From NCBI RefSeq assembly GCF_018918095.1, contig NZ_JAHLPV010000017.1, positions 1 through 49,121 of the forward strand: a stretch of 49,121 bases of DNA. The letters run 5' to 3'. The position numbers were made by a program, and so were the translations under genes. The notes beneath the pieces were generated by a model, which saw only the letters and a list, made by a program, of their open reading frames with translations, was not told the DNA's origin and searched no databases. Below, piece after piece: positions 19,231 through 27,191 of this stretch. The stretch's first letter is position 1. Each line of letters opens with the position of its first letter. This stretch comes from Acetivibrio sp. MSJd-27 (lineage in GTDB: Bacteria > Bacillota > Clostridia > UMGS1840 > HGM11507).

Positions 19231-20010
19231 GTGAAAAATTTTTTCGACTATAATTCGAATAGAGTAGGCGGGGATGATAACTGGTGGGATGCCTATTTTG
19301 CCCAGGAATCATTTGAAGAGCAAGATTGTTCCTGGTCGGATCATAGATGCCGTCCTTGTCCATCACCATGTCCGTCACATTGCAATGATGGATGTTGCTG
19401 TAGAGGTTGGCGGGGTGCAACCGGTCCGACTGGTCCTACTGGCGCAACGGGAGCAACAGGATCTACCGGTCCTACTGGGGCAACAGGAGCAACAGGCGCT
19501 ACTGGAGCAACAGGCGCAACTGGAACTTGCACTTGTCCTTGTGACAATGGAGAACGTATTACAAATGGTGGTATGGAAGCAGTCAGTAATAATCGTCCAA
19601 GCGGCTGGCAATTTGTCAACCAAAACGGTATTTCTTCCGAATCTGCTCAAGGACGTGTCCATTCTGGAAATTATTCGGTTAACATGAAAGATAATACAGA
19701 GTTATCACAGAGAATAGAAGGGGTTCCTGGCGGCTGTTTCTATCAGCTTTCTTTCTTTGCCAGAGGGGAAGGCGCACAGGTTGGCTTAACTGCGCGGGTT
19801 ACTTTTGTGACCCCAACCCAGCAGATTACAGGCGGTACTTTGACAATCCGTCAACAAGATATGCCTAACAGCAATCGTGATTTCGGTTTTTATAAGATCA
19901 ACACTTCTGCTGCCCCTGCAAATACAACCGCTGTTATTATAACTTTTGTTGTAGATGCCAGTGGTCAGCAATCTATGGATTTGGATGATGTATCTTTCAC
20001 AAATCTATAG
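19231..20010 (+). CDS. collagen-like repeat protein, probable spore-surface (BclA-type) protein
   Basis: A 259-residue protein beginning with GTG at 19231 after GAGGTGTG. Residues 1-60 are acidic, then very Cys-rich (eight Cys between 33 and 57). Residues 62-97 are twelve Gly-X-Thr triplets (mostly GAT and GPT), the threonine-rich collagen form used in exosporium filaments. A second Cys cluster follows at 100-104, then a 150-residue beta-sandwich resembling the NTTRR-F1/carbohydrate-binding-like fold ([22 protein letters not shown]). There is no signal peptide, as expected for a protein placed on the spore from the mother cell. It follows sigF but is separated by about 300 bases of repeats, so it is probably transcribed on its own. 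Confidence 0.8.
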
Positions 20011-25765: not shown

Positions 25766-25815
25766 GTATAGATGTTATAATAAAGAAAAAAGAAGCAAAG
25801 AAAGGACGTTTGAAC

Positions 25816-25932
25816 ATGGATGTAATGATAAAGTATGTAAACGGGCATGTTGAAGTCTATGATCGTCTGGGAAATTTTTTGTTTTCCGCGGATACCACAG
25901 ATGAGGCTTATGAAGAGTTGAATGCTGCTTGA
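25816..25932 (+). CDS. 38-residue small protein
   Basis: A complete small frame with AAAGAAAGGACG upstream of the ATG. The product (MDVMIKYVNGHVEVYDRLGNF, continuing LFSADTTDEAYEELNAA) has no signal or membrane segment and reads like a beta hairpin followed by a short acidic helix. I believe similar very small proteins with a 'Y.NGH.EVYD..G.FLFSAD' pattern occur in other Clostridia, but this is from memory and has no assigned function. It lies directly before the tandem array beginning at 25950, and the -35 box of the array's first promoter overlaps its stop codon. Confidence 0.65.
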   Translation: MDVMIKYVNGHVEVYDRLGNFLFSADTTDEAYEELNAA

Positions 25933-25960
25933 TGACAGGCGCTGACTTTTGTGGTATAAT
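25932..25960 (+). promoter_or_regulatory. promoter leading into the tandem hairpin array
   Basis: ATGACA at 25932-25937, a 17-bp spacer and TATAAT at 25955-25960 with an extended -10 (TGGTATAAT). No protein-coding frame follows; the first transcribed bases would be the hairpin array. Confidence 0.6.
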
Positions 25961-26280
25961 AACCTCACAAACCTCTAGAACATTGAAAATGTTAAGAGGC
26001 TTGGAGAACGATTGAATCACAATACTGCGGCGACATTCCGCCGCCTTCGTTGTTGTGGTATAATAACCTCACGAAACAAAACGAAATCGGAGATTTCTGT
26101 GTCTCGGAGAACATTGAAATGCAATATTCCCGATGACATTCTGCCATCTTCATTGTTGCATGATAGATAATCTCACGAACCTCTAAGACATTGAAAATGC
26201 CAAGAGTTTCTTAAGAACGATTGAATTACGATACTGCGGCGATATTCCACCACCTTCGTTATTGTGATATAACCTTGTTG
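25950..26280 (+). repeat. tandem array of three and a part units of about 104 bp
   Basis: Units start with a TGTGGTATAATAACCTCAC-like box at 25951, 26055, about 26161 (as TGATAGATAATCTCAC) and, truncated, about 26265; the -10-like hexamers are at 25955, 26059, 26166 and 26268, spaced 104, 107 and 102. Unit 1 has a first hairpin CCTCT-AACATT/AATGTT-AGAGG (25972-25999), a conserved box GAGAACGATTGAAT and a second hairpin GCGGCG/CGCCGC (26027-26044). Unit 2 keeps the boxes but has diverged hairpins; unit 3 keeps the CCTCT...AAGAG arms and the GCGGCGA box. It could encode a structured noncoding RNA, serve as a protein-binding array or be a decaying tandem repeat. No open frame of note runs through it. 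Confidence 0.7.
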
Positions 26281-26285
26281 AGTTG

Positions 26286-26424
26286 TCCCTCGCCTCTTTT
26301 AGGTGGAGGGTACTGCATTATCGAATCAAGCGGCGGACATATATCCTCCGTTTCGCGAGGTTGAAACGCCTGCAAGGTATCTTTTGCAACATTTTGTTGC
26401 AAAAGTGATTCCATCTTGTTATAA
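26286..26424. repeat. dispersed intergenic repeat, copy 4
   Basis: Ends with an 87-base block (26338-26424) that matches 27980-28066 with four mismatches. It carries CCTCCG/CGAGG and TTTTGCAAC/GTTGCAAAA hairpins and finishes with CATCTTGTTATAA. Its left part (CGCCTCTTTTAGGTGGAGGG) is a diverged version of the CCGCC hairpin found in other copies. Confidence 0.8.
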
Positions 26425-26507
26425 TCAAATTCGATTTGAAAGATGATTCAAAATTTCTATGTTATGCGAAGAACAAATTATTTATTTTGAAATGGGGAGA
26501 AGGGCTT

Positions 26508-27191
26508 TTGGATAAAATAAAAGAACAACTGCTGCAAATGTCGGAAGAAGAGTATCGCAAGTTCTCTTCCGCACTGATACCGAATGGGGAAAAAATGATT
26601 GGTGTGCGGCTTCCCAACCTTCGTAAGCTAGCTAAGTCCATTGCAAAGGCTGACTGGCGAAGTTATTTGATGTCTGCCGAAGATACTTATTTTGAAGAGA
26701 TTATGCTTCAAGGCATGGTGATTGGATATGTAGAGACAAATATTGAAGAACGTTTTCAGCTCATTGAAAATTTTATTCCCAAAATCCATAATTGGTCTAT
26801 TTGTGACAGTTTTTGTATAGGCTTAAAATGTGCAAAACAATATCCAAAAGAGGTATGGGACTTTATTCATCCATATTTTTCCTCTCAAAAAGAATTTGAG
26901 ATTCGCTTTGCCATTGTAATGGCGTTGGATTTCTTTGTGGATGAACAGCATATTGATGAGATATTTTTCTTGCTTTCCAAGGTAAAACTGGAGAAATATT
27001 ATGCGCAGATGGCAGCGGCATGGGCGCTTTCTGTATGTTTTGTTCGATTTCCTGACGAAACAATGTTTTTTTTGAGAAAGGGCATTTTGGATGAATTTAC
27101 TTATCAAAAAGCATTGTCTAAAATCATAGAATCCCGGCAGGTAACCCCTGCAATCAGGCAACTGGTAAGACAGATGCGAAGGAAGGAATAA
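26508..27191 (+). CDS. DNA alkylation repair protein, AlkD-like
   Basis: A 227-residue all-helical HEAT-repeat protein of the AlkC/AlkD family, DNA glycosylases that remove alkylated bases such as 3- and 7-alkyl purines. The family features RLPNLRKLAKSIAK, FEEIMLQGMVIGY, NWSICDSFC and FEIRFAIVMALDFFV are all present. I choose TTG at 26508 since GGGGAGAAGGG lies just upstream and the homologous region starts there. The in-frame ATG at 26436 would place 24 extra residues immediately after the repeat. It is followed four bases later by thpR. Confidence 0.85.
   Translation: MDKIKEQLLQMSEEEYRKFSSALIPNGEKMIGVRLPNLRKLAKSIAKADWRSYLMSAEDTYFEEIMLQGMVIGYVETNIEERFQLIENFIPKIHNWSICDSFCIGLKCAKQYPKEVWDFIHPYFSSQKEFEIRFAIVMALDFFVDEQHIDEIFFLLSKVKLEKYYAQMAAAWALSVCFVRFPDETMFFLRKGILDEFTYQKALSKIIESRQVTPAIRQLVRQMRRKE

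Follow-up and report, generated by a model that had tools for sequence, protein, structure and literature searches.

Within the 49,121-nucleotide stretch of Acetivibrio DNA analysed here (hereafter the window), an array of three tandem repeat units is located on the plus strand between a 38-codon open reading frame (ORF; 25816..25932), which has no Pfam match, and a gene of the DNA alkylation repair enzyme family (26508..27191; PF08713, E 1e-14), both of these plus-strand genes being outside the element. The TGA stop codon of the small ORF overlaps a -35 hexamer, ATGACA (25932-25937), that resides in unique flanking sequence, matches TTGACA at five of six positions and is followed, after a 17-bp spacer, by the extended -10 box TGG-TATAAT (25952..25960, with TATAAT at 25955-25960). 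These features agree with a first-pass annotation, which had noted tandem units at 25932-26280, the first of them with a -35 (ATGACA, 17-bp spacer) overlapping the stop codon of the 38-codon gene; the units are present and the promoter at the head of the array is supported. The extended -10 box of this host promoter is the left X of the array and its presumed target site, and sequence of the same kind is also retained at empty sites in another genus. A separate promoter-like site (TTGCAA-17-TATAAT with a preceding TGT; 26397..26425, plus strand) belongs to the downstream gene and is likewise outside the element.

Unit 1 (25961..26064, 104 bp) is intact. Its left hairpin (CTC.A.CAAACCTCT..AGAGGCTTG.GAG; 25964..26006) is seen in RNA and DNA folds as well as in covariation and is followed by X', ATTGAATCA (26011..26019), which, apart from one mismatch and two G.U pairs, is complementary to both the left and the right X. 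X' also closes the right hairpin (26011..26064) together with the right X (26056-26064), the new TGG-TATAAT with which the unit ends. Unit 2 (26065..26168, 104 bp) bears another left module, AACAAAACGAAATC..GATTTC, and a right module that is also of another kind, GCAATATTCC.., and has ATAGAT at its end, while unit 3 (26169..26273, 105 bp) is the most diverged and finishes in TGA-TATAAC; all of these features are read on the plus strand. The partial fourth unit proposed earlier is just the closing TGTGATATAAC of unit 3, and the proposed spacing of 104, 107 and 102 bp gives way to unit lengths of 104, 104 and 105 bp. Of the two hairpins said to be common to the units, CCTCT/AGAGG is found in units 1 and 3 (with the second arm altered in unit 3) but not in unit 2, which has a different left hairpin, whereas GCGGCG/CGCCGC is intact in unit 1 only, unit 2 having another right hairpin and unit 3 a mutated arm. 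Similarly, a -10 box for each unit holds for units 1 and 2, both preceded by TATAAT, but not for unit 3, which is preceded by ATAGAT. That no frame runs through the array is correct for the plus strand, where none of 80 amino acids or more was found, but a minus-strand frame of 81 amino acids (25775-26020) overlaps unit 1.

Compared with dinucleotide shuffles, the folding z-scores (RNA and DNA, respectively) are -4.2 and -3.7 for unit 1, -1.2 and -1.6 for unit 2, and -0.6 and -0.35 for unit 3. By these scores, units 2 and 3 look partly decayed. At its default score, Tandem Repeats Finder left the window array unreported. Tandem repeats of 9, 18, 27 and 36 bp are present elsewhere in the window (19231-20010), within a gene for a collagen-like repeat protein.

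The units are dispersed throughout the source genome (G000), where the 359-base stretch gave at least 47 matches at E <=1 (40 of 59 candidates scored) and a covariance model of the left half found at least 49 places at E <= 0.01 (150 of 1424 candidates scored). Near-identical units sit in unrelated flanks, and near-identical copies of the subfamily of unit 1 occur elsewhere; indeed, unit 1 and its neighbourhood match other sites of the genome at 94-98% over ~114-179 bp, which bears out the recent duplication suggested in the first-pass annotation. This distribution does not support an RNA array or binding region that is dedicated to this locus and linked to the 38-codon gene, as units precede ~40 unrelated genes of the source genome, other copies come after other genes, and in another genus one and the same promoter has an array in some genomes and none in others. 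Beyond the source genome, covariance searching of related genomes yielded matches in 43 of 391 sampled genomes of the class and in 32 of 222 genera (E <= 0.001; source genome included), with at most 13 candidates scored per genome, such that the per-genome counts are lower bounds. An exact-pattern scan added four other species represented by metagenome-assembled genomes (Bacillota S31_Bin1, Ruminococcaceae UBA1691, a Eubacteriales bin and a Clostridia bin). Phage and plasmid records contained no family match and the number of viral contigs was zero, ruling out phage or plasmid cargo. A known Rfam family was also ruled out, with no covariance-model match at the gathering score and only tRNA and chance hits when E was relaxed to 1.

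Across species, the unit follows a common grammar, X - AAC - CTC - A - [variable stem] - GAG - AAC - X' - [second variable stem] - X, in which X' is complementary to both the left and the right X in most units; five loci (L142, L143, L152, L157 and L164) did not display their match in the fixed-length stretch of sequence that was read. In the type found here, X is TGnTATAAT and X' is ATTGWATCA. At one locus (L104) X and X' are altered jointly, with TATAAC accompanied by GTTGTA, and a further type, Q, has ATAAG as X and CTTGT as X'; type Q relatives are not located at -10 boxes. Some units of the source genome finish in TAGAT-type sequence that pairs poorly with X'. The two halves of the unit are shuffled as modules: in the source genome, left type 1 is combined with right types 1, 2 and 3 in 21, 4 and 2 units, and left type 2 with the same right types in 2, 2 and 1 units, although 14 of the 46 matches tabulated fall outside these left and right classes and some are false.

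Further hairpin modules, which start with AAAGACACGCCG, AAAATCAAATTGAAAAG or ATGCACAGGGCATATTATAC (four, three and two loci, respectively), are flanked in the source genome by the same TATAATA borders and form chains with the family, and these chained modules constitute a wider set of promoter-bounded modules. A longer composite repeat that contains a type Q hairpin and whose sequence (GTCAAGTCAGGAGAACAGTG ... GGACCTACTATTTTT) varies slightly was seen beside unrelated genes at eight loci in eight genomes, and inspection by eye of the ORFs at 10 type Q loci revealed no recognisable transposase beside these copies.

Covariation was assessed on a set of 83 matches, from which nine non-units were dropped and identical sequences merged to leave 65 distinct units, 36 of them taken for variety. 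The closing helix was excluded from the counted structure because many rows of the alignment are shifted by one base at that end. In these 36 left units, the 18 counted pairs are 92.1% paired, compared with 76.8% in shuffles, two-sided changes are seen in 14 pairs and amount to 103 cells, as against a mean of 33 in shuffles and 9-20 in slid structures, and the covariation is 0.426 versus 0.170 in shuffles. Further pair types show no excess over shuffles (22 versus 22.1), and one-sided changes, for example from G-C to G-U, are found in only six cells. The hairpins are under selection and are kept across species by compensatory change, the lack of which had been named in the first-pass annotation as grounds for refuting its reading. 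The scarcity of G.U pairs would be as compatible with selection acting on folded DNA as with selection acting on RNA, if not more so. Taken together, the promoter at its head, the compensatory change in its hairpins and its recent duplication suggest that the window array is probably a transcribed repeat.

The first unit of an array tends to lie at a promoter. Among 31 first units of the source genome, a set that includes one plus-strand locus that is not a true unit (L011) and to which 11 of 40 sources contribute no first unit under the filter, 20 have a -35-like hexamer (at least four of six matches to TTGACA) at a spacer of 16-18, compared with a mean of 4.5 (sd 2.0, maximum 11) in 2000 shuffles. 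Other spacings give 2-7 such hexamers, the mean match peaks at exactly 17, and TG is present one base ahead of TATAAT in 24 of the 31, the mean flank identity of these first units being 0.30 with one related pair. In other genomes the hexamer is found in 17 of 48 first units (shuffles 6.5, sd 2.4, maximum 18), the spacer again peaks at 17 bp and TG is present in 33, with the reservation that the 48 include some orthologous pairs and one type Q unit (L213) and are not all independent. In G171 and G285, TATAAT is missing from many array ends. The nearest long ORF downstream is on the same strand as the array in 36 of 41 cases in the source genome (binomial p 8e-7), and the next ORF is on the same strand in 30 of 46 arrays of other genomes, on the opposite strand in 11 and missing in five, these latter ORFs being mechanical and unannotated. 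Ten of 20 picked downstream ORFs were scanned and belong to ten different families, recA-, kdpD-, gidA- and parA-like proteins, glycerate kinase and PPIase among them; a regulon was ruled out on the grounds that the downstream genes are unrelated. The evidence for insertion at -10 boxes is good.

The location of the units between promoter and gene, with a hairpin close to where the transcript is expected to begin, together with the strong compensatory change, would also be expected of a cis-regulatory 5'-leader RNA, akin to a riboswitch or a stabiliser and selected for control of the host gene. The unrelated downstream genes (among the ten of 20 scanned), the presence and absence of an array at one promoter within a genus, the negative Rfam searches, the paucity of G.U pairs (six one-sided versus 103 two-sided cells) and the decayed units within the window argue against such a role, which we regard as improbable.

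Empty sites were found within one genus (G171, G285, G395 and G396), distinct from the species of the window, and all comparisons of this kind come from there. In G285, 904 bp comprising seven units separate the promoter TATAAT from the desulfoferrodoxin gene, whereas the corresponding promoter in G171, with flanks 92-94% identical, is free of insert and reads GGGTATAATAAAATAAC; G396 (CATAGGGTATAATAAATG) and G395 (CATAGGTATAATAAATG) also have a single TATAATA and no insert. The filled site reads GGGTATAATAACCTCAC ... GATATAATAAAAAAGC, such that TATAATAA occurs twice when the site is filled and once when it is empty. With three species empty here, the closest among them, a gain accounts for the pattern more simply than repeated losses do. 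A second promoter, of a glycosyltransferase gene, has one 90-bp unit in G171 and two units in G285, while G395 and G396 are unit-free and retain TATGCTATAAT / TATGCTATAATG. A Glycos_transf_4 gene, read by eye as mraY, has units at its promoter in G285 and G171, and in G395 and G396 that promoter retains TGGTATAAT without CCTCAC units but with a different hairpin between two TATAATs; the site in these relatives is therefore not simply empty and gives only partial support. A fourth query has units in both G285 and G171 that differ in number and sequence, and four further shared promoters differ in unit number or stem sequence between these two genomes. The turnover at shared promoters amounts to five versus two, three to four versus one, and two versus one units.

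The presence of TATAATAA at both ends of the insert could be taken as the 7-8 bp target duplication of a conventional MITE mobilised by a DDE transposase. No terminal inverted repeat exists between AACCTCAC and the right end, however, the bases flanking the two copies of TATAATAA differ (GGG versus TGA) and X' of the unit pairs with the right copy; a DDE-type MITE was rejected for want of terminal inverted repeats, and we consider it very improbable. Alternatively, the units could have spread with no dedicated enzyme, through host recombination, or switching between templates, wherever TATAAT offers a short homology. Such a spread would account for insert ends that have only TATAATAA in common, for changes in unit number that look like slippage and for no common enzyme being seen in the carriers searched, but would leave unexplained the strict left end, the conserved AAC.CTC.A/GAG.AAC core, the co-variation of X and X', and the placement of first units at promoters rather than at any TATAAT. 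On balance, such an enzyme-free origin also appears improbable.

The arrays tend to have a polarity. When whole units are compared, the first unit resembles other copies more closely than the last unit does in each of the 10 multi-unit arrays of the source genome, and the closeness of window units 1, 2 and 3 to other copies is 0.99, 0.93 and 0.88; truncated last units depress their own score in this comparison, which a comparison of left hairpins alone avoids. The latter gave a weaker signal, with the first unit closer in 19 arrays, the last closer in five and 10 ties among 34 arrays of six genomes, and polarity in none of five arrays of G060. This polarity suggests that new units probably enter next to the promoter, the alternative being that distal units decay faster.

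We class the family among short, non-autonomous mobile repeats, with unusual targeting; dispersal, hairpin covariation, precise placement 3' of the -10 box with the -35 in unrelated flanks, a doubled box, empty sites and turnover in unit number are all observed. With a probability of about two in three, we interpret its members as non-coding, non-autonomous repeats of a single-strand type that insert 3' of promoter -10 boxes. A unit would insert directly 3' of TGnTATAAT in a working promoter, in sense orientation, and bring its own TGnTATAAT at its 3' end, thereby doubling the -10 box. The inserted unit would become the 5' leader of the predicted downstream transcript, and as every unit supplies a new target at its end, units could stack in tandem with the older ones tending to lie further from the promoter. 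We infer that X' (ATTGWATCA) acts as a DNA guide, as in IS200/IS605 elements, and pairs with X in single-stranded DNA, the probable target being the melted -10 region of an open promoter, and that the insertion is carried out by an enzyme that acts in trans or has since been lost. Single-stranded DNA is exposed at the -10 box of open promoters, and this exposure would account for true promoters being preferred to other TATAAT sequences.

A bolder version, that the repeats represent a new class of DNA-guided mobile element, with a 9-nt guide, the melted -10 strand as a transcription-marked target, promoter-side entry and a non-Y1 enzyme, is put forward only tentatively, as we consider it less than an even bet by some distance. 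Fresh units arriving next to the promoter would then push older ones downstream to give a layered, promoter-led array, and a change of guide, as between the TATAAT and ATAAG types, would change the target.

Correia elements and other MITEs are short mobile repeats with terminal inverted repeats that affect the transcription of their neighbours; no such inverted repeats are seen in the family. Both are named in PMC3049150, in an account of the BOX repeats of Streptococcus pneumoniae and S. suis, which are described there as modular, folded and non-coding, located near genes and able to alter expression. BOX elements resemble the family in being dispersed, modular and folded, and in the varying number of inner modules that they hold in tandem (PMC3049150). 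They are defined by the boxA-(boxB)n-boxC modules of streptococci, the carriers here being Clostridia-like genomes. Relative to the features outlined in PMC3049150, the family differs in units that lie behind -10 boxes, finish in a new -10 box and contain an X' complementary to X.

In REP sequences, as outlined in PMC8266576, the stem is preceded on its 5' side by a tetranucleotide (GTAG in most cases), and cleavage takes place at CT or CA. REPs and their BIME groupings share with the family high-copy imperfect palindromes, an important bulge, a short guide-like motif and tandem grouping (PMC8266576). The units examined have no GTAG directly 5' of the palindrome, their conserved core being AACCTCAC...GGAGAAC, and TnpA-REP (Y1_Tnp, PF01797) is missing from seven of 12 carriers searched, the source genome possessing contig-end pieces; membership of REP/BIME fails on these two points. 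According to the portion of PMC5934647 that deals with targeting, IS608 picks its target by DNA pairing, and eight nucleotides of added complementarity 3' of the left hairpin sharpened its aim. Insertion directly 3' of a fixed short target, chosen in IS200/IS605 elements by DNA-DNA pairing (PMC5934647), is found in the family, and the engineered IS608 resembles its X'-X geometry (PMC5934647). In contrast to IS200/IS605 elements as described there, the family unit has no transposase gene, a 9-nt X' rather than a 4-nt guide, and a right end that is itself the target. The IS608 guide is 5' of its hairpin, whereas the family X' is 3' of the left hairpin; at the right end X' is 5' of the hairpin with X behind it, which fits the IS200/IS605 arrangement of a guide 5' of each end hairpin that pairs with the cleavage site, and at the left end X' lies on the 3' side.

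An alternative is that the units are REP/IS200-type repeats which a Y1 (HUH) transposase resident in the genome mobilises in trans. The imperfect hairpins and their conserved bulge, the guide-like complementarity and the dispersal are in keeping with such a scenario, as are Y1_Tnp matches in G000, G003, G017, G060, G220 and G307, but PF01797 was not found in seven of the 12 carriers searched (G171, G285, G061, G062, G063, G002 and G379, of which G171 and G285 are 99% complete) and the geometry of the guide differs. We judge mobilisation by Y1 unlikely, though slightly less so than a leader RNA or an enzyme-free origin.

A literature search, with most subscription journals outside its scope, found no description of the family, which is apparently undescribed before. 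Should targeting of the -10 box by single-stranded mobile repeats be correct, the family would amount to parasitic DNA that seeks out promoters and ends up as the beginning of host messenger RNAs, and a widespread bacterial repeat would be targeting the most basic promoter signal and surviving through restoring it. The 5' leaders of housekeeping genes would have been rewritten in many Clostridia, and the family would represent a natural counterpart of the laboratory-extended targeting of IS608. Two questions become testable, namely whether mobile DNA can land in the open promoter bubble and by which enzyme the repeat is moved, and for annotators the family would explain many hairpins ahead of genes that could otherwise be mistaken for riboswitches.

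Arrays often lie at the contig ends of draft genomes, including at least four loci, so they probably break assemblies and are under-counted. Pieces of an IS200-like Y1 transposase also lie at five contig ends of the source genome, and the four left ends that were read begin with TTGTATCACGAAAACCACC and are preceded by terminator-like or T-rich sequence.
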